Notes under the pieces: generated by a model
The model's input: only the letters and a program-made list of their open reading frames with translations
Told to the model about the DNA's origin: nothing
Databases searched by the model: none
Shown: positions 3,390-49,568 of the stretch, piece after piece
How positions within the stretch are numbered: position 1 is the first letter of the stretch
Layout of the letters: every line of letters begins with the position of its first letter
Program-made: the position numbers and the translations under genes
Assembly (NCBI GenBank): GCA_022797115.1
Contig: JAAWKB010000002.1
Span: 1 to 64,000, forward strand
DNA length: 64,000 nt
From: Oscillospiraceae bacterium
GTDB lineage: Bacteria; Bacillota; Clostridia; Oscillospirales; Oscillospiraceae
Direction of reading: 5' to 3'

Positions 3390-4009
3390 AGTGGCTGATT
3401 GAACAGCTCACGCTGCTGCGGGAATTCCTGCGCTCGGACTTCCGCCGGATCTTTTTGTTGTGCGCACTGGGGATGGTATGTGCCTGTGCGCTGGGCGTGG
3501 GCTTCTCCCTGGCGCGGCCGGACGCGGCCATGGAGGTGATCGGGCTCTTTATTGCCCAGGCGGAGCAGTCCGGCGTGGTGGACGAGCACGGCGGGATGTC
3601 CGTGTTTGCCCTGCTGCTGAACAACTGGCGGGCGATGCTTCTCTCCGCCGCCTACGGCTTTATCCCCTTTATCTTCCTGCCGGTGTTCAGCCTGCTGTCC
3701 AACGGGGCGCTGTTGGGGGTTATGGCGGCGGTTTACGTCTCCAACGAGATGTCCCTGGTCCTCCTGCTGGCCGGCATTTTGCCCCACGGCATATTTGAGC
3801 TGCCGGCCCTGGTGCTGTCCATCGCCTGCGGCGTGTACCTGTGCAGGAATATGTGCCGCTTAGTGACCAGCAGCCCCCGCCGCGTCCCCATGGTGGAGCT
3901 GCTGGGGGATCTGCTGCGGGTGCTTGTGCTGCTGGTGGCGCCAATGACCGTGGCCGCGGCGTTTATCGAGTGCTATGTGACGCCGGTGATCATGGGGCTG
4001 TTCCTCTGA
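3386..4009 (+). CDS. SpoIIM-family (stage II sporulation protein M-like) membrane protein
   Basis: 'NNWRAMLLSAAYGFIPFIFLPVFSLLSNGALLG...GILPHGIFELPALVLSIACG' typical of the SpoIIM/DUF95 family; ATG at 3386. Confidence 0.8.
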   Translation: MKWLIEQLTLLREFLRSDFRRIFLLCALGMVCACALGVGFSLARPDAAMEVIGLFIAQAEQSGVVDEHGGMSVFALLLNNWRAMLLSAAYGFIPFIFLPVFSLLSNGALLGVMAAVYVSNEMSLVLLLAGILPHGIFELPALVLSIACGVYLCRNMCRLVTSSPRRVPMVELLGDLLRVLVLLVAPMTVAAAFIECYVTPVIMGLFL

Positions 4010-4054: not shown

Positions 4055-4711
4055 ATGAAGCGGATTGCGATCATAGACGACGACGTATATATTGGGGACA
4101 TGCTGGATGAGCTGCTCCGGCGGGAGGGGTACGGCGTCCTGCGGGCCTACTCAGGCACGGAGGCGCTGCTGCTCCTGTCCGGCCAGCGGCCGGATCTGGT
4201 ATTGCTGGATCTGATGCTGCCGGGCCTGGGCGGCGAGGAGGTGCTCCCCCATCTGGCGGGCATCCCGACCATTGTACTCTCCGCCCGGGCAGACGTGGGG
4301 GACAAGGTGCGCCTCCTGCTGGGCGGCGCGGCGGACTACCTCACCAAGCCCTTTGACACGCGGGAGCTGCTGGCCCGCATCGCGGTGCAGCTGCGGGGCG
4401 GTCCCGCTGCGCCGCAGCTGCTGCGGTACAAGGGGCTGTCCATGGACACCGCCGCCCGCACCGTGGCGGCGGAGGGCGGCATCATCCGGCTGACCAGGAC
4501 GGAATACGCCATTTTGAAGCTGCTGATGCAGAACCCCAGGCAGGTAGTGACCAAATCCCAGCTGCTTGACCACATCAGTGCGGACACCCCGGACTGCGTG
4601 GAGGGCTCCTTGAAGGTACACGTCAGCAACCTGCGGAAAAAGCTCCGGGACGCCGGGGCGGGCGACTGCATCGAATCAGTGTGGGGGATCGGGTTCAAGC
4701 TTGCGGAGTGA
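4055..4711 (+). CDS. OmpR-family response regulator
   Basis: Receiver 'KRIAIIDDDVYIGDML...DLVLLDLMLPGLGGEE' plus winged-helix 'VHVSNLRKKLRDAGAGDCIESVWGIGFKL'. Confidence 0.95.
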   Translation: MKRIAIIDDDVYIGDMLDELLRREGYGVLRAYSGTEALLLLSGQRPDLVLLDLMLPGLGGEEVLPHLAGIPTIVLSARADVGDKVRLLLGGAADYLTKPFDTRELLARIAVQLRGGPAAPQLLRYKGLSMDTAARTVAAEGGIIRLTRTEYAILKLLMQNPRQVVTKSQLLDHISADTPDCVEGSLKVHVSNLRKKLRDAGAGDCIESVWGIGFKLAE

Positions 4712-4766: not shown

Positions 4767-4814
4767 ATGCCATACTATACTGTCCCCATCCCATCCAAAT
4801 AAGGAGGCATGGCT

Positions 4815-5729
4815 ATGGACTATGTCCTGCAAACAGAAGAGCTGAGCAAGCACTACAAAACCACCAAGGCCCTGGACCGGCTGACGATGCATGTGGAGAA
4901 GGGCTCGATCTACGGCTTTGTCGGCCGCAACGGCGCAGGCAAAACCACCCTCATCCGCCACATCTGCGGCCTGCAAACCCCTACCAGCGGCTCCTTCACC
5001 CTCTATGGCTGCCCCAACACCAGCCGTGAGATCTGCCGCGCCCGCCGCCGGATCGGCGCGGTGGTGGAGACCCCATCCATCTACCTGTCCATGACGGCGG
5101 AGGAAAACCTGCGCCAGCAGTACCAGATCCTGGGACTTCCGTCCTACGATGGCCTGGGGGAGCTGCTGGAGCTGGTGCGGTTACAGCACACGGGGAAGAA
5201 AAAAGCCCGGGACTTCTCCCTGGGGATGCGCCAGCGGCTGGGCATCGCTGTGGCCCTGGCCGGGGACCCGGACTTCCTCATTCTGGACGAGCCCGCCAAC
5301 GGGCTGGACCCCCAGGGCATTGTGGAGATCCGGGAGCTGATCCTGCGCCTGAACCGGGAACGGCAGATCACCGTCCTGATCTCCAGCCACATCCTCGACG
5401 AGCTGGGCCGCCTGGCCACCCACTACGGGTTCATCGACAACGGCCGCATGATCCAGGAGATCAGCGCCAAGGAGCTGGAGGCCAGCTGCCGCAAGCGGAT
5501 GCGCCTGACCGTCAGCGACACCCGGCCCCTCACCGCCGCCCTGGATAAAATGGGCCTGGAGTACACCGTCTGGTCCGACACGGCGGCGGACGTCTACGGC
5601 GCGGCCTCTGTCACAGAGATGACCCTGGCCCTCCACGCCGCCGGGTGCAAGGTGGAGCGCATCCATGAGCACGACGAGAGCCTGGAGAGCTACTATATGA
5701 ACCTGGTGGGAGGTGGCGGCGATGCGTAA
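4815..5729 (+). CDS. ABC transporter ATP-binding protein (antimicrobial-peptide/lantibiotic-immunity type)
   Basis: Walker A 'GRNGAGKTTLI', signature 'FSLGMRQRLGIAVAL', Walker B 'FLILDEPANGLDP'. ATG at 4809 or 4815. Confidence 0.92.
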   Translation: MDYVLQTEELSKHYKTTKALDRLTMHVEKGSIYGFVGRNGAGKTTLIRHICGLQTPTSGSFTLYGCPNTSREICRARRRIGAVVETPSIYLSMTAEENLRQQYQILGLPSYDGLGELLELVRLQHTGKKKARDFSLGMRQRLGIAVALAGDPDFLILDEPANGLDPQGIVEIRELILRLNRERQITVLISSHILDELGRLATHYGFIDNGRMIQEISAKELEASCRKRMRLTVSDTRPLTAALDKMGLEYTVWSDTAADVYGAASVTEMTLALHAAGCKVERIHEHDESLESYYMNLVGGGGDA

Positions 5730-6555
5730 CCTCCTGCGGGCCAACTTCTACCGCCTGGGCCGGGATCGGACCTTCCGGATGTGCGCCGCCGCAGTGCTGG
5801 CGCTGTCGGTTGTGTTCATGCTGGGCGGCTGCCGGGAGGCCGTCCAGAAGGCAGCGGATTACGGCGCCGTGACGGAACTGGACGGGCTCTACTTCCAGAT
5901 CGTTCCCACGATCGGGATCTTTATCTCCATCCTCGCCTGCCTGTTCCTCGGCGTGGAATACGGGGAGGGTACCGTCCGCAACAAGCTGTCGATGGGCCAT
6001 ACCCGACGGGACGTCTATCTGGCGAATTTCCTCACTGTTGCCGCCGCCTCCCTGATCCTCCAGCTGATGTGGATGGCCGGCGCGTGCGTGGGCATCCCCT
6101 TCCTAGGGACGTGGACCCTGCGCCCCGACGCACTGGCGCTGCTCTTTCTCATGGTGGCCGGCACCAGTGTCGCCATGGCCGCTATCTTCACCTGCATAGA
6201 AATGCTTCATACCGGCCGGTCCTCCAGCATAGTGACGCTGTTGAGCTACTTTGCCATGCTCTTCGCCGCAAGCGCGGTCTACAATATTCTCAGCGAGCCG
6301 GAGTTCTACGCCGGTACGATTGTGACAGTGGAGGGCGTGCAGGTAGTGGAGCCGGAGCCCAACCCTCTCTATGTGACCGGGGCCCTGCGGGCGTTCTATG
6401 AGTTTGTCATGGACTTTCTGCCCACTGGCCAGATTGCCCGCATCCAAAATATGGACATGGGCCATCCCCTGCGGATGTTCCTCTCATCCGTGTTGATCAC
6501 AGCATCCGTCACCCTTGGCGGGGCGAAGCTGTTTGCGCGGACGGATTTGAAGTGA
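5722..6555 (+). CDS. ABC-2 type transporter permease
   Basis: 'MRNLLRANFYRLGRDRTF...VEYGEGTVRNKLSMGHTRRDVYLANF...LFARTDLK'; multiple TM segments. Confidence 0.85.
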   Translation: MRNLLRANFYRLGRDRTFRMCAAAVLALSVVFMLGGCREAVQKAADYGAVTELDGLYFQIVPTIGIFISILACLFLGVEYGEGTVRNKLSMGHTRRDVYLANFLTVAAASLILQLMWMAGACVGIPFLGTWTLRPDALALLFLMVAGTSVAMAAIFTCIEMLHTGRSSSIVTLLSYFAMLFAASAVYNILSEPEFYAGTIVTVEGVQVVEPEPNPLYVTGALRAFYEFVMDFLPTGQIARIQNMDMGHPLRMFLSSVLITASVTLGGAKLFARTDLK

Positions 6556-21768: not shown

Positions 21769-23087
21769 AAGCAACTGTCATCGGCGCCGGCCTGGCCGGC
21801 AGCGAGGCTGCCTGGCAGCTGGCCAGGCGGGGCGTCGCGGTTACGCTGTGGGAGATGAAGCCCCGGAAGATGACCCCCGCCCACTCCAGCGGGCTCTTTG
21901 CCGAGCTGGTCTGCTCCAACTCCCTGCGGGGGGCCGGGCTGGAGAACGCCGTGGGCCTGCTCAAAGAGGAGCTGCGGCAGCTGGACAGCCTGATTCTCCA
22001 GGCGGCGGACGCGACGCGGGTGGAGGCGGGCGGCGCGCTGGCGGTGGACCGCCAGGGCTTTGCCGCCTTTGTCACCCAGGCGGTCCGCTCCCATCCCAAC
22101 ATCACGGTGCAGGAGGGCGAGATCACCCAGCTGCCGGAGGGCGAGGTCATTGCCGCCACCGGCCCGCTGACCAGTGACGCCCTGGCCGCCCATTTGCAGG
22201 CCCTCACCGGCGGCGAGGGCTCCGCCCTCCACTTCTTTGATGCCGCCGCGCCCCTGGTCACTTTTGAGAGCATCGACATGTCCCGCGCCTGGTTCGCCTC
22301 CCGCTACGACAAGGGGACGGCGGATTATATCAACTGCGCCCTCAGCGAGGATGAGTACCGCGCCTTCTGGCAGGAGCTGTGCGCGGCCCAGGAGGCGGAG
22401 GTACACGGCTTTGAGGACAAGCAGGTCTTTGAGGGCTGTATGCCCGTGGAGGTCATGGCCCGCCGCGGGGAGGATACCCTGCGCTACGGCCCCCTGAAGC
22501 CCCGGGGACTCCGGGACCCCTCCACAGGCCGCGAGCCCTACGCCGTGGTCCAGCTCCGCCGGGACAATGCGGAGGGCTCCATCTATAATCTGGTGGGGTT
22601 CCAGACCCATTTGAAGTTCGGTGAGCAGCGGCGGGTATTTTCCATGATTCCCGCCCTGCAAAACGCGGAGTATGTCCGCTATGGCGTCATGCACCGCAAT
22701 ACCTATCTGGACTCCCCCCGGCTGCTGAACCGGTACTACCAGCTCAAAGCGGACCCCCGCATCACCTTTGCCGGGCAGATGACCGGGGTGGAGGGCTATG
22801 TGGAATCCGCCGCATCCGGTTTCCTGGCCGCAGTGGAGCTGGCCCGGCGGCTGGCGGGACAGCCCCCCATCGATTTCCCCCGGGAAACTGCCCTGGGGGC
22901 GCTGGCCCTCTACATCTCCGATGGGACGGTGGCGGCTTTCCAGCCGATGAACATTAATTTTGGAATTATTGAGCCCCTGGGCCACCGGGTCAAGGGGAAA
23001 CGGAACAAAAACCTGGAGATCTCCAACCGTTCCCTGGCCGTCATTGGCCAGCTGCGGGACGAGGTGGTAAAGGAGGCTGTCTATTGA
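21765..23087 (+). CDS. trmFO: Methylenetetrahydrofolate-tRNA-(uracil-5-)-methyltransferase
   Basis: 'KATVIGAGLAGSEAAWQLARRGVAVTLWEMKPRKMTPAHSSGLFAELVCSNSLRG', 'FAGQMTGVEGYVESAASG'. Confidence 0.96.
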   Translation: MKATVIGAGLAGSEAAWQLARRGVAVTLWEMKPRKMTPAHSSGLFAELVCSNSLRGAGLENAVGLLKEELRQLDSLILQAADATRVEAGGALAVDRQGFAAFVTQAVRSHPNITVQEGEITQLPEGEVIAATGPLTSDALAAHLQALTGGEGSALHFFDAAAPLVTFESIDMSRAWFASRYDKGTADYINCALSEDEYRAFWQELCAAQEAEVHGFEDKQVFEGCMPVEVMARRGEDTLRYGPLKPRGLRDPSTGREPYAVVQLRRDNAEGSIYNLVGFQTHLKFGEQRRVFSMIPALQNAEYVRYGVMHRNTYLDSPRLLNRYYQLKADPRITFAGQMTGVEGYVESAASGFLAAVELARRLAGQPPIDFPRETALGALALYISDGTVAAFQPMNINFGIIEPLGHRVKGKRNKNLEISNRSLAVIGQLRDEVVKEAVY

Positions 23088-33598: not shown

Positions 33599-34269
33599 CC
33601 TGCCGCCACCTCCGACAACACCCCGTCCACAATGGTGAGCCGGCGCTCCGCCATGGCTGCGATGCGGCTGTCATGGGTGATGACCACCAGGGCTTTCCCC
33701 ATGTCCTTGCCCACCGCTTTCAGAAGCTCCATCACCTCGCTGCCGCTCCGGCTGTCCAGGTTGCCGGTGGGCTCGTCGGCAAAGATCACATCCGGCTTTG
33801 CTATCAGCGCCCGGGCGATGGCTACCCGCTGCTGTTGTCCGCCGGAGAGCTCATGGGGCAGGTGGGTCAGGCGGTCCTGAATGCCCAGCATTTGGGCCAG
33901 GTCCTGGAGATACCCCTCGTTTGGCTGCTTTCTATCCAGAAGCAGGGGCATGGTGATATTTTCCCGGGCCGTCAGGACGGGCAGCAGGTGGAACTGCTGG
34001 AAGATGAAGCCGATCCGCTGGCGCCGGAAGGCGGACAGCTCCTTGTCGGACAGGCTGTAGATGGCCTTGCCGTCATAGGTCAGATGGCCGGAGGTGGGGC
34101 GGTCCAGCCCGGAGAGCAGGTGCAGGAGCGTGCTCTTTCCACTGCCGGACGGCCCCATAATGGAGATGAAATCGCCGGGGGCGATAGTCAGCGAGGCCCG
34201 GTCCAGGGCCGTCACCCGGTTTTCGCCCTCTCCATAGATTTTGGAAAGTTCCTTTGCTTCGATGTTCAT
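33595..34269 (-). CDS. ABC transporter ATP-binding protein (LolD/MacB/BceA type)
   Basis: 'SIMGPSGSGKSTLLHLLSGLDRPTSG', 'LSGGQQQRVAIARALIAKPDVIFADEPTGNLDSRSG'. Confidence 0.95.
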   Translation of the reverse strand: MNIEAKELSKIYGEGENRVTALDRASLTIAPGDFISIMGPSGSGKSTLLHLLSGLDRPTSGHLTYDGKAIYSLSDKELSAFRRQRIGFIFQQFHLLPVLTARENITMPLLLDRKQPNEGYLQDLAQMLGIQDRLTHLPHELSGGQQQRVAIARALIAKPDVIFADEPTGNLDSRSGSEVMELLKAVGKDMGKALVVITHDSRIAAMAERRLTIVDGVLSEVAAG

Positions 34270-34314
34270 AAAAACACCCTCCTTATTGGTGTAAGGAGAG
34301 TGTACTCGGTAAAT

Positions 34315-34331
34315 CTCAAGAAACGCTCAAG
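34315..34331 (-). promoter_or_regulatory. Putative response-regulator operator upstream of the ABC operon
   Basis: AAATCTCAAGAAACGCTCAAG (34311-34331): two CTCAAG half-sites 11 bp apart; -10-like TACACT on the minus strand 10 bp downstream of the proximal half-site. Confidence 0.65.
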
Positions 34332-34335
34332 GCTG

Positions 34336-35448
34336 TCATTTGATTTGGAAGGACGCTGTGACCGCTGCGCCGCCTGCCTCTCGGTTCTCCAGACGGAGAT
34401 CGCCGCCGTGCTTGCAGCACAAGAGGCCGCTGCTGTATAGGCCCATACCGAAATGCCCATCGGTCCCCTCTGCCGTTCCAAAAGGCTTTGGCCCGTTTTT
34501 TAGCAGTTCAGGGGGGAATCCGGGGCCGTCATCCGCAACGGAGAGAAGCAGCATATTGTTCTCCAGTACGAGGGCAATTTCCAGCTTCTTTTGCGCGAAA
34601 CAGGCCGCGTTTCCAATCAGGTTTTCCGCCACAGTCAGGAAAATCCCGTGGTCAATCTGTACCGATCCCATATCTGGCCCGCAGATCGCCGGTTCCCGCC
34701 CCGGGGCCAACAGCCGCGCCGTTTCCGCCAGCTCTGCGCGCAGGTCCACCCAGGCCACGCCGGCGGGTTGCACCGGCATTTGCTCCAGCCGCTGAATGCT
34801 GCTCATGGCCTCCACATACCGCTCAATTCGCAATGTGTAGCTCTCCAGGCGGTCAAGGGCCTGCTGATTGGAGGCGTCCTGGCGCAGTAATTTGACGTTC
34901 CCCTTCAAGACAGTGATGGGATTGCGCAGATCGTGGGCAAAGGCGGCATTGAGCCGCTTTCGTTCCTCCGCCTGCCGCCATAATTCCTGATTTGTCTTCA
35001 GCAGCTCCAGCCTCATGTTTTCAAATGCCGTGCAGATTTGCCCCAGTTCGTCAGCGGAGAGGTTGGGGATGGTGAAATCCAGATCATGGGCCTGGACCCG
35101 CTGCGTCCCCTCCAGCAGCAGGGCGAGGGGTTCTTTCAGTTTCCAGCGGTAAAAGAGCATTCCAGCTGCCGCCAGACCGGCTGCCGGAAACAGGATGCAG
35201 CCCAGCAGAAAGATAAGATCCACTGCTGCCCGCATCCTCATTTGCTCTGGCGTGGGCGCAGGCAGCGGCTGGATCACGCCGTTGCTGTCGACCATCACCC
35301 CGCCTGACGGATATTGGGACGAAACCGCCTGGCACCCTTTCCACAGCAGGGCCGTCAGGATCAGCGCCGCCAGCAGTCCGCAGAGGGTCAGCAGAAAAAA
35401 GGACCGCCGCAGGCTCATATTCTTCAGCCGTTCCACCTGTACCCGCAC
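34336..35448 (-). CDS. Sensor histidine kinase
   Basis: TM, HAMP-like region, 'AFAHDLRNPITVLKGNVKLL', 'VADDGPGFP', 'GMGLYSSGLLCCKHGG'. Confidence 0.93.
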   Translation of the reverse strand: MRVQVERLKNMSLRRSFFLLTLCGLLAALILTALLWKGCQAVSSQYPSGGVMVDSNGVIQPLPAPTPEQMRMRAAVDLIFLLGCILFPAAGLAAAGMLFYRWKLKEPLALLLEGTQRVQAHDLDFTIPNLSADELGQICTAFENMRLELLKTNQELWRQAEERKRLNAAFAHDLRNPITVLKGNVKLLRQDASNQQALDRLESYTLRIERYVEAMSSIQRLEQMPVQPAGVAWVDLRAELAETARLLAPGREPAICGPDMGSVQIDHGIFLTVAENLIGNAACFAQKKLEIALVLENNMLLLSVADDGPGFPPELLKNGPKPFGTAEGTDGHFGMGLYSSGLLCCKHGGDLRLENREAGGAAVTASFQIK

Positions 35449-36095
35449 CCCCAGACTGTCTCAATATAGCTGTGGAGCGTATGGACGGCCAGCTTGGCCC
35501 GAATCTTTCGGATATGCTCCATGACAGTATCGCTGCTGCCCTCGCCGTCAATGCCCCACACCGTCTCATAGATCCGTTCCCGGTCGAAAACCTGTCCTGC
35601 ATTCAGGGACAGCAGCTCCAGAATGTCAAATTCCCGGCGGGAAAGCGGTACGGCCCCGCCGCGGACGGTCACAGTCCGGGCGGAGTAGTCCACCACGCAC
35701 TCCCCGAAAAAGCGCAGGTTAGACGGGCTGCTCCTCCGCTGTTCCCGGCGCAGATGGGCGGCGATCCGCGCCGCCAGCTCGTCCAGATCAAAGGGCTTCA
35801 CAATGTAGTCGTCCGCCCCCGCTTGAAAGCCGATGATCTGGTCAGAGGATTCTATGCGGGCTGTTAAAAATAAAATGGGGCAGGACACATGGTCCCGGAT
35901 GGTCTGACAGACAGCCAGGCCGTCCATCCCCGGCATATTGATGTCCAGCAGGATCAGATCCGGTTGTTTCTCCGCCTTTTGAATGGCCTCCTGCCCGCTG
36001 TAGGCTGTCAGAATCTCATATTGCGGGGAAAAGTAAGCTCTCATTGTGTCCACGATACCGCGTTCATCGTCCACAATCAGCAGCGTCGGTTTCAA
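35424..36095 (-). CDS. OmpR-family response regulator
   Basis: 'KPTLLIVDDERGIVDTMRAYF', 'DLILLDINMPGMDGLAVC', winged helix 'IRKIRAKLAVHTLHSYIETVWGCGYRW'; TTG start at 36095 after AGAGGAGA. Confidence 0.93.
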   Translation of the reverse strand: MKPTLLIVDDERGIVDTMRAYFSPQYEILTAYSGQEAIQKAEKQPDLILLDINMPGMDGLAVCQTIRDHVSCPILFLTARIESSDQIIGFQAGADDYIVKPFDLDELAARIAAHLRREQRRSSPSNLRFFGECVVDYSARTVTVRGGAVPLSRREFDILELLSLNAGQVFDRERIYETVWGIDGEGSSDTVMEHIRKIRAKLAVHTLHSYIETVWGCGYRWNG

Positions 36096-38131: not shown

Positions 38132-38638
38132 ATGGAATGCACATTCATCACCGCCGGGCAGATTGTCAACACCCACGGCATCCGGGGCGAGGTCAAGCTG
38201 CTGCCCCAGGGCGTTGACCTGGATCTCCTGGCCCAATGCGGCGTTTTTTACGTGGACGGCGCCCCTTACACCGCCGCCGCCTGCCGGGAGCACAAGGGCT
38301 GCCTGCTTCTCAAGCTCAAGGGGGTGGACGATATGGACGCCGCCCTGTCCTTGAAGGGGAAACCCGTCTCCATCCTGCGCGCAGGCGCCCCCCTGCCGCC
38401 GGGAGGATACTTTGACCAGGAGCTGGTGGGCCTCACCGCCAGGGACGCCGCCACCGGCGAGGCCCTGGGAACAGTGGAGGAAGTCCTGAGCTACCCCGCC
38501 CACAAAATTTATGCTGTCCGCGGCGGGGCGGACGAGTATTTGATCCCCGCCGTGCCGGCCTTCGTCGCCGCTGTCGACCTGGCGGGCGGGACGATGGATA
38601 TCCATGTGTGGGAGGGGATGGGCAGCCATGCGGATTGA
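38132..38638 (+). CDS. rimM: 16S rRNA processing protein RimM
   Basis: 'FITAGQIVNTHGIRGEVKLLPQ', PRC-barrel C-terminus; directly upstream of trmD. Confidence 0.93.
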   Translation: MECTFITAGQIVNTHGIRGEVKLLPQGVDLDLLAQCGVFYVDGAPYTAAACREHKGCLLLKLKGVDDMDAALSLKGKPVSILRAGAPLPPGGYFDQELVGLTARDAATGEALGTVEEVLSYPAHKIYAVRGGADEYLIPAVPAFVAAVDLAGGTMDIHVWEGMGSHAD

Positions 38639-39422
38639 TATCATGACCCTGTTCCCCGAGACCGTGGGGGATATGATGAACGAATCCATCCTGGGCAGGG
38701 CCCAGGAGCGGGGCTATATCCGTATCGAGGCCCATCAGATCCGGGACTATACGGTCAACAAGCAGAAGCAGGTAGACGACTACCCTTACGGCGGCGGCCG
38801 GGGGGCCGTCATGCAGGCGGACCCCCTTTACCGCTGCTGGGCATCCATTCAAGAGGCATTTGGGACGCCGCGCAGCCGTACCATCTACCTCTCCCCCTGC
38901 GGGACCACCTTCTGCCAGGCCAAGGCCCGGCAGCTGCTGGCGGACTATGACCACCTGATTTTAGTCTGCGGCCACTATGAGGGCATTGACGAGCGGTTTA
39001 TCGAGGAATGCGTGGACGAGGAGATCTCCATGGGGGATTTCGTCCTCACCGGCGGGGAGATCCCGGCTATGGCAGTGGCGGACGCAGTATGCCGGATGGT
39101 GCCTGGGGTCCTGCCGGAGGCGGCCTGCTACGAGGAAGAGAGCCACTGGAACGGCCTGCTGGAATACCCACAGTACAGCCGCCCGGAGACGTGGCATGGC
39201 CGGAAGGTGCCGGAGGTCCTCCTCAGCGGCCACCATGCCAACGTAGCAGCGTGGCGGCTGCGCCAGTCCATGCTGCGCACCCTCCGCCGCCGGCCGGACA
39301 TGTTCCGGGAGGCGGATTTCCAGGGCACCAAGGCCAGCCGGAAGCTGCTGGCGGAGGTCTATGGGGAGCTGGAGAGGGAGAAGGGCTCAACCACCGGTTT
39401 ACCCGGCGAATCGACCAATTAG
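38628..39422 (+). CDS. trmD: tRNA (guanine-N1)-methyltransferase
   Basis: 'MRIDIMTLFPETVGDMMNESILGRA', 'YGGGRGAVMQADPLY', 'LVCGHYEGIDERFIEECVDEEISMGDFVLTGGEIPAMAV'. Confidence 0.96.
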   Translation: MRIDIMTLFPETVGDMMNESILGRAQERGYIRIEAHQIRDYTVNKQKQVDDYPYGGGRGAVMQADPLYRCWASIQEAFGTPRSRTIYLSPCGTTFCQAKARQLLADYDHLILVCGHYEGIDERFIEECVDEEISMGDFVLTGGEIPAMAVADAVCRMVPGVLPEAACYEEESHWNGLLEYPQYSRPETWHGRKVPEVLLSGHHANVAAWRLRQSMLRTLRRRPDMFREADFQGTKASRKLLAEVYGELEREKGSTTGLPGESTN

Positions 39423-40378: not shown

Positions 40379-40921
40379 TCAGTTTTCCATATGCTTTCCC
40401 AAAAAAGCGGCGATGGTCTGGGCCAGCTTGTACTCGGTCTCACCTGTGACCTGGGGGTCGCCGTCCTCTACAAACAGCACCAGTCCCAGCACATCCCCCT
40501 CGGAGATAATGGGGGCCGCCACGGCAGCGCAGAACTTTTCGCCTGACTCTGTGACAAAAATCCGGCGGTCATCACCTGTGTGCTGGTAGATCCGCCGGTC
40601 CTCCATGATCTGCTCCAGCTGGGAGCTGATCCGCTTGCCCATCAGCTCCCGCTTGCCGCCGCCGGCTACGGCGATGATGGTGTCCCGGTCCGTGACGGCG
40701 GTAATCGCGCCGCAGCTCTTGGACAGGGTTTCACAAAATTGGGCCGCAAAGTCGTCCAGCCCGCCCATCAGGGAATACTTCTTAAAGATGACCTCGCCGT
40801 CACGGCTGGTGTAAATCTCTAAGGGGTCGCCCTCCCGAATACGCATCGTGCGCCGGATTTCCTTGGGGATTACCACCCGTCCCAGGTCGTCAATGCGGCG
40901 CACAATTCCGGTTGCTTTCAT
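40379..40921 (-). CDS. spoVT: Stage V sporulation protein T (AbrB-like + GAF-like)
   Basis: 'MKATGIVRRIDDLGRVVIPKEIRRTMRIREGDPLEIYTSRDGEVIFKKYS' and C-terminal GAF-like domain; CAT start at 40919-40921. Confidence 0.93.
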   Translation of the reverse strand: MKATGIVRRIDDLGRVVIPKEIRRTMRIREGDPLEIYTSRDGEVIFKKYSLMGGLDDFAAQFCETLSKSCGAITAVTDRDTIIAVAGGGKRELMGKRISSQLEQIMEDRRIYQHTGDDRRIFVTESGEKFCAAVAAPIISEGDVLGLVLFVEDGDPQVTGETEYKLAQTIAAFLGKHMEN

Positions 40922-41083: not shown

Positions 41084-41332
41084 ATGGATCTCAAGCGTCA
41101 GGCGGAGCAGCAGCTCCAGCGGGCAGATTTCAATAAATATGAGCTCCCCGACATCACAGGCATCTCCCTGCCCAACGCCGGCCCCCAGGCAAAGGCCCGG
41201 GCCTTCCTGCGGGCGGCCGGGAACCCGTACCTGTTCCGCGTCGGTGATATCGGCGTCCATGTGGCCTTTTCTGGGGAAACTGGCGACACTTTACAGGATC
41301 GGATGTGCCGTTTGCTGTCAAAATCCATTTAA
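41084..41332 (+). CDS. Small protein, DUF6870-like
   Basis: 82 aa '...ARAFLRAAGNPYLFRVGDIGVHVAFSGETGDTLQDRMCRLLSKSI'; family assignment from recall only. Confidence 0.6.
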   Translation: MDLKRQAEQQLQRADFNKYELPDITGISLPNAGPQAKARAFLRAAGNPYLFRVGDIGVHVAFSGETGDTLQDRMCRLLSKSI

Positions 41333-41414: not shown

Positions 41415-43103
41415 ATGGCCAGAAGGAACCGTTATGATGAGTATGTCAAAAAAAAGCAGGGGATCGCGCCGGCTGCCGCCCAGTGGCGGGCGGCGGCTTA
41501 TCTGCGTATCTCCAGAGAGGACGGCGATAAAGAGGAAAGCGACAGCATCGCCACACAAAAGGATATCACCCGCGAATACGTGGACGGCAGCGGCGATATC
41601 AGCCTGACGGGCACGTATATCGACGACGGCTGGACCGGGACGAACTTCAACCGCCCGGATTTCGAGCGGATGATGGACGACATCAAAAGCGGCGCAGTCA
41701 ACTGCATCGTCGTCAAGGACCTGTCCCGGCTGGGCAGGAACTACATCCTGGTCGGCCAGTATCTGGAGATGGTCTTCCCCCTGTTCAACATCCGTTTTGT
41801 CTCCGTGGTGGACCACATCGACAGCGTGAAGGACCCCGCCTCCATCAACAACGCCCTCGTATCCTTTAAAAACGTGATGAACGATGAGTACTGCCGGGAT
41901 ATCTCCAACAAGGTCCGCTCCTCCCTGGACCGGAAACGGGGCAAGGGGGAGTTCATCGGCTCCTTCGCCTCCTACGGCTACCGCAAGGACCCGGACGACC
42001 GCCACCATCTGGTGGTGGACCCGGCTGCCGCCGAAGTGGTCCGCAGCATCTTCCAGTGGTTCCTGGAGGGCATGAGCATCATCGGCATTGCGAAACGGCT
42101 CAACCAGATGGGCGTCCCCAACCCCACCCTGTACAAGCGGCAGCTGGGCCTGCGCTACCGGCACCCCACCGGCGAGATCTGCGACGGGCTCTGGCCCGAC
42201 TCCTCCGTGCGCCGTATCCTGAAAAACCAGATCTACGCCGGCGACATGGTCCAGAGCCGGACGCGCACCAAGAGCTACAAGGTCCAGGTCTCCGCCGCCG
42301 TGCCCCAGGAGCAGTGGACCGTCGTCCCGGACACCCACGAGCCCATTATCCCCCGGGAGCAGTTTGAGGCGGTGCAGCAGCTCCTGCTGCGGGACACCCG
42401 CGCCGCCCCCGGCGTATCCCATGTGAGCATTTTCAGCGGCTATATCCGCTGCGCGGACTGCCGCCGGGCCATGGCGAAGAAAACCGCCTGCCAGCCCTAT
42501 CAAACGTACCGCTACTATGTGTGCCAGACCTTCCGCAAGGGCGACCGGTCCGCCTGCACCAAGCACACCATCCGGGAGGAAAAGCTCTACCAGGCCGTAC
42601 TGGCCACCGTCCAGGCACAGATCCAGCTGGCGGTATCCATGGACGAGCTGCTGCGGGAGCTGCAAAAGCGGAACCTCCAGGCGTCCAGGTCCTCCCGGCT
42701 GGAGGCCATGCTCCAGCTGCAGGAGCAGGAGCGGGAAAAGCTGGCCCAGTACAAGGCCGACCTCTATCCCGACTGGAAATCCGGCGTGCTCACCAAGGAG
42801 GAATACCTCACCTTGAAGGGACGGTTTGACAGCCAGCTGGAGCAGGTCGAGCGGTCCATCGCCGGGCTGCGGGAGGAGATGCGCCAGTACCGGCAGTCCG
42901 CCGCCGCAGAGAGCCAGTTCGTCCAGCATTTCCTGAAGTACCGGAACATCCGGGAGCTGACGCGGGAGGTCGTGGTGGAGCTGATTGAGATGATCTACGT
43001 CCACGAGGGCGGGACCATCACCATCCTGTTTCAATATCAGGACGAATACCAGCGGCTGCTGGACCTGCTGGACGAGCACGGCCTGTCCGCCAAGGCGGGA
43101 TAA
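41415..43103 (+). CDS. Large serine recombinase (resolvase/invertase family)
   Basis: 'AAYLRISREDGDKEESDSIATQKDI', 'IVVKDLSRLGRNYILVGQYLE', recombinase domain, Zn ribbon 'GYIRCADCRRAM...YVCQTF', coiled coil. Confidence 0.96.
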   Translation: MARRNRYDEYVKKKQGIAPAAAQWRAAAYLRISREDGDKEESDSIATQKDITREYVDGSGDISLTGTYIDDGWTGTNFNRPDFERMMDDIKSGAVNCIVVKDLSRLGRNYILVGQYLEMVFPLFNIRFVSVVDHIDSVKDPASINNALVSFKNVMNDEYCRDISNKVRSSLDRKRGKGEFIGSFASYGYRKDPDDRHHLVVDPAAAEVVRSIFQWFLEGMSIIGIAKRLNQMGVPNPTLYKRQLGLRYRHPTGEICDGLWPDSSVRRILKNQIYAGDMVQSRTRTKSYKVQVSAAVPQEQWTVVPDTHEPIIPREQFEAVQQLLLRDTRAAPGVSHVSIFSGYIRCADCRRAMAKKTACQPYQTYRYYVCQTFRKGDRSACTKHTIREEKLYQAVLATVQAQIQLAVSMDELLRELQKRNLQASRSSRLEAMLQLQEQEREKLAQYKADLYPDWKSGVLTKEEYLTLKGRFDSQLEQVERSIAGLREEMRQYRQSAAAESQFVQHFLKYRNIRELTREVVVELIEMIYVHEGGTITILFQYQDEYQRLLDLLDEHGLSAKAG

Positions 43104-43132
43104 TTTCTATTATGGGCCTAATCTTCCACCAG

Positions 43133-43524
43133 CCCCCGCTGCTTATGACACCCTGTCCGCCCACTTTGCCGCCACCGGCACCGGCCCAAAGGACTACGAC
43201 CTGGTGCTGACCGGGGATCTGGGGGTGTTGGGCCACCAGATTATCGTGGACCTGTTCGCCCAGGACGGGGTGGACATGAGCCAAAACTACCAGGACTGCG
43301 GGATGCTGCTCTACGACATCGAAAAGCAGGACATGCACGCCGGGGCCAGCGGCTGCGGATGCTCCGCGTCGGTGCTGTGCGGGTACCTGCTGCGGGAGAT
43401 GGATGAGGGGCGTTGGAAAAAGCTGCTCTTTGCCCCCACGGGCGCGCTGCTCTCCCCTACCTCGTCCTTCCAGGGCGAGAGCATCCCCTCGATCTGCCAT
43501 GCAGTCACCATCGAAATGCAGTGA
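43133..43524 (+). pseudogene. spoVAD: 3' fragment of stage V sporulation protein AD (spoVAD), 5' part missing
   Basis: 'APAAYDTLSAHFAATGTGPKDYDLVLTGDLGVLGHQIIVDLF...DCGMLLYDIEKQDMHAGASGCGCSASVLCGYLL...LFAPTGALLSPTSSFQGESIPSICHAVTIE' is the SpoVAD C-terminus; similarity stops about 30 nt after the recombinase stop. Confidence 0.85.
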
Positions 43525-43575: not shown

Positions 43576-43932
43576 ATGCAGTATCTGAACGCATTCCTCT
43601 GCGGCGGCATCCTATGTGCCATCGGACAGATTTTCATCGACAGAACCCAGCTGACCCCTGCCCGTATCCTGACGGGGTTTGTGGTAGCCGGCGTGTTTTT
43701 GGAGGCTATCGGTGTGTACGCCCCCATTGCGGAGTGGGGCGGTGCGGGCGCGAGCGTACCCCTGACGGGATTTGGCTCTAACCTCGCCAAGGGCGTCGCC
43801 AAGGCTGTGGGCGAAAAGGGCTGGCTGGGTGTGATGACCGGCGGGCTGACAGCCGCGGCCGGCGGCATCGCGGCGGCTGTGCTGTTCAGCTTCCTGGCCG
43901 CCCTGATCTTCCGGCCCGGCGAAAAACGGTAG
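43576..43932 (+). CDS. spoVAE: Stage V sporulation protein AE
   Basis: 'YLNAFLCGGILCAIGQIFIDRTQLTPARILTGFVVAGVFLEAIGVYAPIAEWGGAGASVPLTGFGSNLAKGV'. Confidence 0.93.
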   Translation: MQYLNAFLCGGILCAIGQIFIDRTQLTPARILTGFVVAGVFLEAIGVYAPIAEWGGAGASVPLTGFGSNLAKGVAKAVGEKGWLGVMTGGLTAAAGGIAAAVLFSFLAALIFRPGEKR

Positions 43933-44800: not shown

Positions 44801-47800
44801 TTACTGCTTCATCATCCCGTCAAAGCGCATCAGGATGGCCGCAATTTCCGCCCGCGTGGCTGTCTCCCGAGGCATGAGCTGCCCGTCCGTCCCCTGGAGG
44901 ATGCCCGTGCTGACAGCCCAGGACAGGGCCGTCTCCGCCCAAGAGCTGGCCGCGTCCCTGTCGGAGAAGCCCTCCAGGCTGGCCCGGGCGGTGGTATCCA
45001 CGCCCAGATGCGCCGCCATGCGGCAGAGCATCACGGCCACCTGCTCCCGGGTCACAAGACCGTCGGGGCTGAACAGGTTGCTGCCAGTCCCTGTGAGTAT
45101 ACCGGCCTCCGCTGTCCAGGACACCGCGCCGGCAAACCATCTCCCGGCTGCCACATCGGCGAAGCTGCTGGCGGCTGTACTGGCGGGGGCTCCCGCCAGG
45201 CGGTGGAGTACGGCAGCCATCATCGCCCGGGTCATGTGCCCATCCGGCTCAAAACGCCCCTCGGCGGCGCCTACCATCAGGCCGCGTTCGCTCACAAAGC
45301 GCACAGCGGGCGCGAACCACCGGTCCTCGGCTACGTCGCTGTACACAGGACGGGAGACCGGCTTTTCCGGCTCCGGCTGGCTGGGCTGCTGTGGTTCAGT
45401 GGGCTGCTGGCTCTCCTCGCTGCTGCCAGCATTGGGCTTGGACGGCTTCTGGGAGCCAGGCCGCTGGATCACCCCGGGCCAGACGGGCCAAGCCGGCGGC
45501 TCAGGGCTGGGCCCGGCAGGAAGCTCCGGCAGGCCGATCTCCCCCCGGTAATTCCTGCGCAGGTTCGTGTCAAATTGGGTTATGACCTCGTAATTCCTGG
45601 CATGATCCATTACCACCAGCACATCGCCGTCCACGCCGGCGCTGTAGTAGGCGATGCCCATGCCGGGCGCCGCCTCAGCGATGACAGAGCTGCCCACATC
45701 GTCATTTTCCGTCACCATCACCAGCGGGGAGACCGCCTCCAGCCACTCCCTGCTGTTGGAGGTATACAGGCCGTGGTGGTTGGCCTTCACCACATCCGCC
45801 TGCAATTGGCTGCCCAGGCGGTCGATCAGGAGCAGCTCCTGGCTGATATACAGATCACCGCCGGTAAGGTAGGTGGAGGACCCGTAGGTCATCTTCAGTA
45901 CGATGGATACATTGTTGACAAACTCGTCCTCGGTGTTGCCGGAGGTGACTTCGGCCTCCGTCGGCCCCAGCACATCCACTGTTACGCCGCCGATTGCCCA
46001 CTGCTGCCCGGCGTGGACATTTCGGTCAATCGCTACGCCCTTGCCGGCCATGAAATCCGCGATGTCAGACTCAGTGGTCTTGTTGTCCGGCGCGGGATAG
46101 CCGGAGTAATAGTATGCCCCGATCTGTCCGCCCGCGTCATAAATGGCCTGCGCCGCCGCCAAGGCGTTGCCTGCATGGTCGGTGTGGGGATGGGTCAGGA
46201 CAAAGTAGTCCAGGCTGGTGAGCGCAAGAGCGCGCATCATGTTCAGGACATTCGCCTCGCTGTTTTTCACGCCGGAGTCAATCAGCATCGTCTGGCCGTT
46301 GGGGAAGACAATCAGCGTGCAGTCGCCAGTCTTTGCCGACTTGGTGGATTCGGTCAGGTCCGGGGCCAGGATATACAGCTTGCCGTCCCCGCCCTGCTCC
46401 AGCGCGGCGCGGACAACTGCAAATATCTCGTCCTGGCGGTCTGCCGCGGACACACCGGCCTGGAGATACCGCGCCAGGACAGCGGCGGCCTGCGCCCGGG
46501 TCAGGACACTGCCGGAGGGGCTGGCAATCCCGGACAGCAGGTCCTCCGCCCAGGCCATCGCGGCAGACAGCTCCGCATCCGCCACCCTCCCGGCCAGGGT
46601 ATACTGCCCATTATACGCTGCTGTCCGCGCCAGCACAAGGGAAAGCTCCCCGGCAGTCAGATATTCCTGGGAAATTCCCGCGGCCAAGCCATTGCGCCTG
46701 CCCCAGTCAACCGCGTTGGCATACATGCCGGGCGTTCCGGCGCGGCGGTACAGGATGTCCAGCACCATCTCCAGGGTGGCAGGCGCTTCGCCGTTGAAAC
46801 GGCCGCCGGTGAGATAGCCGTCCTCCACCAGAGCATCCAGGGCCTCCGCATACCATTCGCCGCCAGTGACATCGGAGAAGATTGCGGCGGCGGTGTCCGG
46901 CGTGCCGGTGCAGTGCAGCGATGCGTTCAGCAGGTTCGCGTTGCCCTTCCCGGAGTTGGTCAGACGGATCTGCTCCCACTGGCGCGGGGTGCCGCCGTAG
47001 TAGACATCCTGGATGGCGGTGTCATAGTTGAACGCCTTCATGTCCACAGCCTCCAGGGTGGCGGGCAGATAGATGGTCCGCAGGTTCTTCGTATCGCTGA
47101 ATGCCTTTGCCGCAAGAATCCGCGTCCCCTCCGGGATTGTGATTTCCGTCAGGGCATAGCAGCCGCTGAAGGTGTAGGTCCCGATCCGCTCCAGGGAGCG
47201 GGGCAGTTCCACTTGCTCCAGGCTCTTGCAGTTTTGGAATGCGCTGTCGCCCAAGGTGGTGACACCAGCCTCCACGACCACCGCCTTTACCGCGTCCACG
47301 CTGTAGCGCCAGGGCACCTTGCTGGTTGAGCGGTAATCTTCCATGGGGCCGTATCCGCTGATGGTCAGGACAGCCTCGTCCGGGCTGAGCGACCAGGTGA
47401 CGTTTTCACCGCAGCTGCCGGAGGCCGCCAGCGTGACGGCTGCGGCCAGGAGCGGGCCGTTCCCCGCTTGAATACTCGTCTGGAATCCCATCCATCCATT
47501 CTCATCGCCCACGTAGTAGACCTCCCTGAGGTTGGAGAAATTCTGGAACGCGTTTTCTCCGATCCCAGTGATCCCCGGCCGGATCACAAGGGTGTGTACT
47601 CCGTAGGCATCGTCAGACCAGTCCGGATTGTCCGGGATGGCACCGGTACCACTGAAGGACAGCACACCATTTACAATCGTATAGTCCAGATCGCCCACCG
47701 TATCTTTCCCGTAGATATAGTCCCTGTCCGCACAGTGGACGACAATATCGTCCCGCTGCAGGACGTCCGCCTTGCCGGAATCGGCCAGGGCCTTGTACTC

Positions 47801-49474
47801 GCTGACGGTCCCGGTGTAAAAAATCTCCGTCAGATTGGTTTTTTCAAACGCTTTTTTCTCAAATGTAACCAGCGTTTTGGGGAGCGTCAGCCGCTCCAGC
47901 TGGGAGCAGCCATTGAACAGATTCCCGCCCAGGACCGCCACCGGGGCCGCAGACAGGTCCAGGCTCACGAGGGATGTGCAGTTCATAAAGGTTTTCTGCG
48001 CGATCTCCGTCAGCGTGGAGGGGACGGTTACGCTGGCCAGTCTGTATGAGTTAATAAACAGGCGGTCCCCCAGCTTGGTAATGCCCTCGCCGATAACTAC
48101 GTTTTCCAGCTCCGGCGCGTATGCGACATTCTCATCTAGCCTGCCATACCAGGGAGGGACATCGCTGGGATAGCTGTAGGTCTCCCCGGTGCCAGTCAGA
48201 GTCAGGGTCTTGGTACCGGGGTCGTAGGTCCAGACGACGTGGTCGCCGACACTGCCGGTATAGGGGTTCGCCGGGTCAATCGGCTCCAGCTTGGGTTCTT
48301 CCGGCTTGGGTTCTTCCGGCTTGGGTTCTTCCGGCTTGGGTTCTTCCGGCTTGGGTTCTTCCGGTCCAGGTGTTTCCGTTCCGGAATCGCCAAATGCATA
48401 GTCCCCATCACTGCATGTCACAGTGAACGCTTCTACCGTGACACCGGTATTTTCTTTTTCAAACAGCGCCTTACACTCCTCTGCCGTCCCGGCATAGGTG
48501 ACAGTGCCAGATGTCCATAAGCTGTCCGGGCAGCCGGTGAAGGGCCCCTTATCCTTATTCGCAGTAAAATCCGTCACAGCCGGAAGTGTCAGGGTATTCA
48601 GTGCTGTATCGCTGAACACCTGGTCGCCCATCGTGTAGATTCTGCCCGGTTCATTCTCCCAGATAACCGCAGTAAGCGCCGTGTCCTTAAAAAACGAAAC
48701 CCGCCCCAGTTCCGTGACACTGCTGGGAATGGTGATGGTTTTTAATGCGGCACATTGACGAAAGGTACCTTCACCAATTGCGGTCAAGGAATCCGGCAGG
48801 GTAACGGATGCCAGCTTCACAGCGCCGATCACCAGCCGGTCCCCCAATTCTGTGACTCCATCCCTCACTTCTAAAGCAGTGATTTTCTTTATATCACCAG
48901 ACCAGGGGAGATCTTCTTTACTCGCATAGTTCCCGGTTGGACCTTCTCCGTCCAGAATCAGTGTCCCATCCTCGATCTTCCATCTAATGGAGGTGTTTGG
49001 CTCCTGATTCCATCCAGCGCCCTCATCCTCTGCCGCCGGTGCGCTGGCCCCCTCCTCAGGTTCGGGATTGGCATCCGGCGGCGTGCCTGCATCCCCGCCG
49101 GACGGTGCGGCCGCCTCATCCTCTACCGGATCACCAACATCCTCTACCGGATTGTCCACCGGCGGCGTGCCGTCCTCTGCCGGTGCTTCGGGAATCACAG
49201 TTCCCTCCCCAGGTTCGATTGCAGGGTTGCCGGCATCCTCCCCGCTCACAGGAAGATTGCCATCAGTGGCAGCCTCTGCGTTGCTTTCATCATTCATTTC
49301 TGCACCTTCATCAATAGGATCGGAAACCCCGGCGGAAACAGGGATTTCAGAGGGAGTCCCTCCCTCCGGTAACTCACTGGCCGCCCGTGCGGCAGGCAGC
49401 ATCTGTGCCGACAGCAGCAGGGCCAGTGCAGTACTGATGGTCCGCCTCAAAAAACGTCTCTCTTTGTGTCTCAT
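44801..49474 (-). CDS. Very large secreted protein: BspA-like leucine-rich repeats + ComEC-type metallo-beta-lactamase domain + SLH domains
   Basis: Signal peptide 'MRHKERRFLRRTISTALALLLSAQMLPAARA'; LRR_5 units ('LTSVTLPDSLTAIGEGTFRQCAALKTITIPSSVTELG'); MBL 'GDCTLIVFPNGQTMLIDSG...LTHPHTDHAGN...KANHHG'; three C-terminal SLH units. Confidence 0.88.
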   Translation of the reverse strand: MRHKERRFLRRTISTALALLLSAQMLPAARAASELPEGGTPSEIPVSAGVSDPIDEGAEMNDESNAEAATDGNLPVSGEDAGNPAIEPGEGTVIPEAPAEDGTPPVDNPVEDVGDPVEDEAAAPSGGDAGTPPDANPEPEEGASAPAAEDEGAGWNQEPNTSIRWKIEDGTLILDGEGPTGNYASKEDLPWSGDIKKITALEVRDGVTELGDRLVIGAVKLASVTLPDSLTAIGEGTFRQCAALKTITIPSSVTELGRVSFFKDTALTAVIWENEPGRIYTMGDQVFSDTALNTLTLPAVTDFTANKDKGPFTGCPDSLWTSGTVTYAGTAEECKALFEKENTGVTVEAFTVTCSDGDYAFGDSGTETPGPEEPKPEEPKPEEPKPEEPKPEEPKLEPIDPANPYTGSVGDHVVWTYDPGTKTLTLTGTGETYSYPSDVPPWYGRLDENVAYAPELENVVIGEGITKLGDRLFINSYRLASVTVPSTLTEIAQKTFMNCTSLVSLDLSAAPVAVLGGNLFNGCSQLERLTLPKTLVTFEKKAFEKTNLTEIFYTGTVSEYKALADSGKADVLQRDDIVVHCADRDYIYGKDTVGDLDYTIVNGVLSFSGTGAIPDNPDWSDDAYGVHTLVIRPGITGIGENAFQNFSNLREVYYVGDENGWMGFQTSIQAGNGPLLAAAVTLAASGSCGENVTWSLSPDEAVLTISGYGPMEDYRSTSKVPWRYSVDAVKAVVVEAGVTTLGDSAFQNCKSLEQVELPRSLERIGTYTFSGCYALTEITIPEGTRILAAKAFSDTKNLRTIYLPATLEAVDMKAFNYDTAIQDVYYGGTPRQWEQIRLTNSGKGNANLLNASLHCTGTPDTAAAIFSDVTGGEWYAEALDALVEDGYLTGGRFNGEAPATLEMVLDILYRRAGTPGMYANAVDWGRRNGLAAGISQEYLTAGELSLVLARTAAYNGQYTLAGRVADAELSAAMAWAEDLLSGIASPSGSVLTRAQAAAVLARYLQAGVSAADRQDEIFAVVRAALEQGGDGKLYILAPDLTESTKSAKTGDCTLIVFPNGQTMLIDSGVKNSEANVLNMMRALALTSLDYFVLTHPHTDHAGNALAAAQAIYDAGGQIGAYYYSGYPAPDNKTTESDIADFMAGKGVAIDRNVHAGQQWAIGGVTVDVLGPTEAEVTSGNTEDEFVNNVSIVLKMTYGSSTYLTGGDLYISQELLLIDRLGSQLQADVVKANHHGLYTSNSREWLEAVSPLVMVTENDDVGSSVIAEAAPGMGIAYYSAGVDGDVLVVMDHARNYEVITQFDTNLRRNYRGEIGLPELPAGPSPEPPAWPVWPGVIQRPGSQKPSKPNAGSSEESQQPTEPQQPSQPEPEKPVSRPVYSDVAEDRWFAPAVRFVSERGLMVGAAEGRFEPDGHMTRAMMAAVLHRLAGAPASTAASSFADVAAGRWFAGAVSWTAEAGILTGTGSNLFSPDGLVTREQVAVMLCRMAAHLGVDTTARASLEGFSDRDAASSWAETALSWAVSTGILQGTDGQLMPRETATRAEIAAILMRFDGMMKQ
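48291..48365 (-). repeat. Five tandem copies of a 15-bp unit
   Basis: (TTGGGTTCTTCCGGC)x5, last copy ends in T; encodes (PEEPK)n linker. Confidence 0.95.
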
Positions 49475-49568
49475 AGCACCCTCCATCTCTTATATATTAC
49501 ACCCGCCCAAGGCCGCTGTGCGGCCCTGGGCGGGCGCCTTTCAGGCAGCCCGCGCCGCCCGTTTCCCC

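Follow-up and report, generated by a model that had tools for sequence, protein, structure and literature searches.

A large serine recombinase beside a divided spoVAD gene in an Oscillospiraceae genome and other Clostridia

In the Oscillospiraceae genome studied here (G000), a coding sequence for the C-terminal part of SpoVAD begins just behind a large serine recombinase gene, which raises the questions of where the rest of the gene lies, how it came to be divided, and whether the cell can put it back together. In C. difficile, the spoVAC-AD-AE genes are sigma-G dependent and required for dipicolinic acid (DPA) import into the forespore (PMC3789822), while the known intervening elements interrupt sigK, gerE, spoVFB, yabG, and spsM (PMC10747680, PMC5595907). 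To our knowledge, none of these five is anything but a mother-cell gene, and there the loss of DNA is harmless to descendants. The literature that we searched contained no report linking spoVAD to a serine recombinase, an attachment site, or an intervening element.

The divided gene, its attachment sites, and its recombinase

A Pfam search of the G000 genome recovered SpoVAD solely as two pieces, with no intact copy. The 3′ part lies on the plus strand at positions 43132..43524 of the window, i.e., the whole 64,000-nucleotide stretch that was analyzed, and matches PF07451 with 181.7 bits over profile positions 202-329 (positions 201-327 of the NCBIfam model spore_V_AD). It is followed on the same strand by spoVAE (43576..43932; SpoVAC/SpoVAEB family, PF03862, E 2e-34). 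The 5′ part was found on another contig, C52 (21298-21915), and covers SpoVAD Pfam positions 1-206. In blastn comparisons with congeners carrying spoVAD in one place, homology started at window position 43132 for 18/18 loci and, for the C52 piece, stopped at 21911-21912, with an overlap of 11-12 bp between the homology ends of both junctions. The earliest in-frame start codon of the 3′ half in the list of open reading frames is at 43204, i.e., 72 bases inside. G000 is a 75%-complete metagenome-assembled genome (MAG) of 139 contigs in which C52 and the contig of the window (C86) are separate, and both junctions sit inside their contigs (at 21.9 of 30 kb and 43.1 of 68 kb, respectively). One hallmark of skin-type systems, a sporulation gene that is split with both halves kept, is thereby met in G000.

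The two junctions have in common a 12-bp core, GCCCCCGCTGCT, at window positions 43132-43143 and C52 positions 21901-21912, and nothing else: the C52 junction reads ATG-GCCCCCGCTGCT-GCTTGATTAGG, and the window junction reads CCACCA-GCCCCCGCTGCT-TATGACACC. Intact genes encode NMGAAM|APAAYDT at the break (nucleotides NNMGAAMAPAAYDT). A first-pass annotation made from the sequence alone had proposed an attachment-site junction at 43104-43140, between the recombinase stop and the resumption of SpoVAD homology, and had predicted an intact form resembling (D/N)MGxAM|APAAYDT, a breakpoint at 43132/43133, and a crossover confined to a few bases. The quoted sequence was present and the predicted form was confirmed; the breakpoint held with a small shift, the edge of homology being 43131/43132, and the crossover could be narrowed to the dinucleotide CC at 43135-43136 by comparing attL and attR across 18 genomes. 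Neither of the outcomes that would have refuted the claim was observed, as no homology to intact spoVAD was found upstream of 43132 and the 12-bp core was found at a partner locus, on C52. The attachment-site reading is further supported by a palindromic attP and by recombinases at the same codon in >20 genomes. The implied element with two ends held only in part for G000: because housekeeping genes adjoin both att sites, the DNA between the spoVAD halves is not a recognizable mobile element.

The window site, attR (43105..43143, plus strand), consists of a left attP arm (43105-43134), the CC crossover, and the core common with attL. When attP was rebuilt by joining the outer arms of attR and attL in 18 genomes, the resulting site of ~60 bp was an imperfect palindrome, roughly TTATGGT...CTTGACATcTtCC-CC-tGTAGATGTTAA...ACCATAA. 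Its arms matched at 18/30 positions in G000 and at a mean of 16.9/30 over the 18 genomes, against 9.9 ± 2.1 (s.d.) for shuffled arms. CC represents the only bases common to attL and attR in all 18 genomes, and because in G347 (attL GCACCTgta, attR TCCCCGgcg) the common stretch around the crossover is reduced to CC alone, we placed the crossover at bases 1 and 2 of the proline codon. Since the palindromic attP is drawn from both flanks, we infer that C52 and C86 carry the products of one reaction, and the combination of imperfect inverted repeats in attP with a short attL/attR core satisfies what is expected of a large serine recombinase. Taken together, the window junction (attR) and the C52 junction (attL) are very likely the reciprocal products of a single large serine recombinase reaction. 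In the mechanism we propose, attB would be the Ala-Pro codon pair of spoVAD (NNMGAAM|APAAYDT), and attP × attB recombination would have broken the gene within the proline codon, at its CC, leaving attL behind the 5′ half on C52.

The recombinase gene (41415..43103, plus strand, 562 aa) encodes Resolvase, Recombinase, Zn ribbon, and DUF4368 domains (PF00239, PF07508, PF13408, and PF14287, all above cut-off), meeting the domain criterion for large serine recombinases, and the motif YxR(I/L)SRE with the catalytic serine is conserved across six spoVAD recombinases. It ends 28 bases before the junction (stop at 43103, junction at 43132), which fits the skin-type arrangement of a recombinase gene at the end of the element, next to the junction. 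We consider it likely to be the enzyme of the spoVAD reaction, its activity on these sites being inferred. Before it lies a gene for a small DUF6870 protein (41084..41332, plus strand, 82 aa; PF21757, E 1.5e-13). DUF6870 genes precede most recombinases of the spoVAD-linked family and are absent or distantly matched in some relatives, e.g., in G345 and G365 the small gene before the recombinase has only a weak DUF6870 match (E about 0.005). Large serine recombinases normally need a directionality factor for the reverse reaction. DUF6870 may be a candidate for this role, a function inferred by position only. Scans for sporulation promoters before the DUF6870 and recombinase genes gave nothing worth claiming above chance, and G000 has a sigma-G-like gene scoring 426 bits, below the cut-off of 457.

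Recurrence of the split and selection on both halves

We found no close copy of the window recombinase in other genomes of the genus, where the best match was 43% identical, and the split was not seen in any congener in which spoVAD was detected (G018 has a frame break further down the gene). Beyond the genus, the closest homologues (42-57% identity) lie beside the same broken spoVAD codon in >20 other Clostridia genomes. Within a family sample of 300 genomes, each of the five closest homologues (46-56% identity) precedes a spoVAD 3′ half, immediately in four genomes and at a distance of about 7 kb in the fifth (G285). Three of these five genomes also yielded the corresponding 5′ half, and about 5/300 family genomes carry the recombinase split of spoVAD. 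Scanning 84,980 species genomes gave 80 loci, and this structure is shared by most of the closest ~19. In a Pfam search of 18 of those genomes, spoVAD was split in 16, usually with both pieces found, and the break was always near Pfam profile position 194-208. Two IMG/VR contigs also show a spoVAD split with a recombinase. The recombinase tree groups the spoVAD-linked enzymes into a single supported set of 32 rows, in which the window enzyme neighbors those of G126, G196, G343, and G344.

Other arrangements were observed among related recombinases. One genome, G355, was considered as a possible ON form and rejected, its related recombinase being located at another gene with spoVAD intact. In G356 (L175), a full-length spoVAD (4801-5844) lies just inside attR and is followed by the host 3′ half (5965-6351), i.e., this element may bring a spare copy of the very gene that it breaks. 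Recombinases of more distant kinship (L126, L128, L129, L058, L060, and L062) end in or beside collagen-like GPTGPTG genes, which may encode spore-surface proteins and could hint at a third target class. Finally, G345 contains a dispersed repeat of ~100 bp, 88-99% identical, in dozens of places of the genome (L273 query 3506-3610; L164 query 4414-4530).

We next asked whether a divided spoVAD is still used. The split in G000 is perhaps too recent for its own halves to be informative, and selection was evaluated in three Lachnospiraceae (G345, G346, and G365) that have one spoVAD split with the same flanks in all three: on the 5′ side, spoVAC and the spoVAD 5′ half precede a GH43 gene and pyruvate:ferredoxin oxidoreductase; the 3′ side reads GH51-recombinase-spoVAD 3′ half-spoVAE-aldo/keto reductase (GH and reductase names were assigned by reading of the sequence). 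In their relatives G361-G364 and G366, spoVAD is intact. We used pN/pS because synonymous sites were near saturation. Across the three species, the 5′ part gave ratios of 0.10-0.17 and the 3′ part ratios of 0.08-0.09, compared to 0.09-0.34 for intact pairs. Both halves are under strong purifying selection in these Lachnospiraceae, within or below the range of intact pairs, and for this reason spoVAD is probably reassembled. Combined with the absence of a start codon in the 3′ half before 43204, this selection favors rejoining over either decay or the production of two peptides. We thus consider it likely that spoVAD is rejoined by regulated recombination during sporulation, an inference made without expression or read data.

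Restoration by inversion, by excision, or not at all

In the proposed mechanism, the recombinase, with DUF6870 as directionality factor, would recombine attL with attR during sporulation, and the rejoined spoVAD would let DPA uptake proceed. This overall explanation, an att-site split of spoVAD followed by reassembly, is likely to be correct. In G000, the restoring reaction would most likely invert a segment of the chromosome rather than excise an element. Within 8 kb after attL, C52 encodes a thioesterase-like gene, polA, a rimI-like gene, dnaG, and rpoD (thioesterase, rimI, and rpoD named from sequence), and the recombinase side of attR carries spoVT, trmD, rimM, rnc, plsX, trmFO, topA, and gltX (rimM and trmD at 38132..39422, plus strand, with NCBIfam TIGR02273 and NF000648 above cut-off). 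Reading of open reading frames and the families tested, which was not a systematic search, revealed no phage or conjugation genes near the G000 att sites. Inversion is favored in this genome because a circle with housekeeping genes could not be discarded by a surviving cell; since C52 and C86 are unlinked and their orientation is unproven, we regard inversion rather than excision as a possibility that could fall either way. GC skew across both junctions gave no sign of an inversion, and gene order within the genus was too scrambled to infer how the C52 and C86 flanks were originally arranged; one weak hint, a small gene near spoVT in G024, was set aside. An intact (ON) form of this strain was not observed.

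In a relative, G344 (L162), both halves lie on one contig, the 5′ half read from the minus strand and the 3′ half from the plus strand; the 5.6 kb separating them contains the spoVAC, DUF6870, and recombinase genes. Because the halves are in opposite orientation, this spoVAD can be rejoined by inversion only. G344 is a termite gut MAG by its isolate name, and its inverted contig could be a misassembly. A bolder reading is that spoVAD stays divided during growth and is restored by a programmed inversion, reversible and catalyzed by the large serine recombinase, of the chromosome that the spore inherits. The evidence currently falls short of making this the better bet; if true, no DNA would be lost, in contrast to skin-type excision in a mother cell that dies, and the switch would have to be reset after germination.

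The strongest rival explanation, which remains possible, is a skin-type excision in which attL and attR, in direct orientation, bound a large integrated element whose removal as a circle in sporulation would restore spoVAD. In its favor, the halves are in direct orientation on a single contig in three relatives, separated by 4.7 kb in G196 (chemotaxis gene, DUF6870, and recombinase), 6.6 kb in G353 (including a semialdehyde-dehydrogenase gene), and 34 kb in G351; open reading frames next to the junction in G255 and G360 resemble those of mobile elements; and known elements do behave in this way (PMC5595907, PMC4191935). Against it, polA, dnaG, rpoD, trmD, topA, and gltX lie by the G000 att sites and a forespore cannot lose essential genes, and G345, G346, and G365 likewise have chromosomal flanks on either side.

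Alternatively, the recombinase may once have split spoVAD in a strain that has simply lost the gene, with no programmed repair. Such a dead rearrangement would be consistent with the lack of an observed ON form, the reliance on a MAG, and a split in G000 that could be recent, and the spare full-length gene in the G356 element suggests that disruption can need another remedy. We nevertheless find it unlikely, as, in the examined cases, the halves remain open reading frames and are conserved, with strong purifying selection on both in three species that have one split in common, and as one codon has been hit repeatedly with the recombinase and mostly DUF6870 kept. That the halves are instead made as separate polypeptides assembling into a working SpoVAD without any rejoining of DNA would also fit the conservation of both, yet this is very unlikely given the late first start codon of the 3′ half and would leave the palindromic att site at every junction unexplained. 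An assembly artefact, i.e., chimeric joins in both contigs of a fragmented MAG (139 contigs) whose spoVAD is really intact, is all but excluded by two independent junctions with only 12 bp in common (below assembly k-mer length), located inside contigs and with flanks that pair as palindromic attP arms, and by the recurrence of this break, with a recombinase of this type, in >20 independently assembled genomes.

Comparison with known systems and the neighboring spoVT

The preferred reading, an att-site split followed by regulated rejoining, makes spoVAD a relative of skin-type systems with a forespore target, unlike the split sporulation genes reported so far. The gin element in gerE of Bacillus cereus ATCC10987 (PMC5595907) is similar in that non-phage DNA with a serine recombinase splits a sporulation gene, and gerE is rebuilt by attL × attR recombination with a small helper, GirX, which resembles the scheme proposed for spoVAD. 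It differs in acting on a mother-cell gene and in being excised, whereas spoVAD is a member of the forespore (sigma-G) regulon in C. difficile (PMC3789822) and has an inversion topology in at least one relative. Likewise, skin in sigK of Bacillus subtilis and Clostridioides difficile (PMC5025042) combines a serine recombinase and a directionality factor with a split sporulation gene, but its target is a mother-cell gene and the prophage-like element is excised as a circle from a cell that will die. SP-beta in spsM, vfbin in spoVFB, and yin in yabG (PMC4191935, PMC10747680) are also serine recombinase elements in sporulation genes, with targets other than spoVAD, and are described as excised. 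Reversible site-specific inversion controlling a gene is known from the C. difficile flagellar switch (PMC7446863), although there RecV acts on a short segment upstream of an operon, whereas in spoVAD the coding sequence itself is cut between attL and attR.

Because spoVAD is a forespore gene, its rejoining would change the chromosome inherited by the spore, as inferred from its known role. The same split is found in many different gut Clostridia, one relative having a topology that only inversion can repair, which raises the question of whether some spore formers rearrange the chromosome that they pass on, and how this is reset. The ~60-bp att sites and compact DUF6870-recombinase pairs may also represent possible tools for genome engineering.

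The window itself encodes an intact spoVT (40379..40921, minus strand), divergent from the DUF6870-recombinase pair, which scored 211.7 bits against TIGR02851 (spore_V_T), just under the curated cut-off of 235.9, and 141 bits against the SpoVT_C Pfam. Further along on the minus strand (44801-49486) is a 1561-aa protein with apparent leucine-rich-like repeats, a metallo-beta-lactamase-like part, and S-layer-like repeats, as judged by sequence reading only. In several congeners, spoVT, itself a sporulation regulator, is split too, at RIREGDP with the core GGCGACCCG (L149+L150, L110, L152, L097, L154, L109, L151, L153, L155, and L156). In G018 (C66, L149+L150), 32 kb separates the two spoVT parts (2792-2923 and 33775-35892), which are directly oriented; the spoVT 3′ half there forms an in-frame fusion with a different serine recombinase (about 27% identical). 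G000 also contains, on contig C35 (L108, 291-749), a second and diverged spoVT 3′ half, 58% identical and adjoining another serine recombinase, which may be a paralogue or derive from a contaminating contig.
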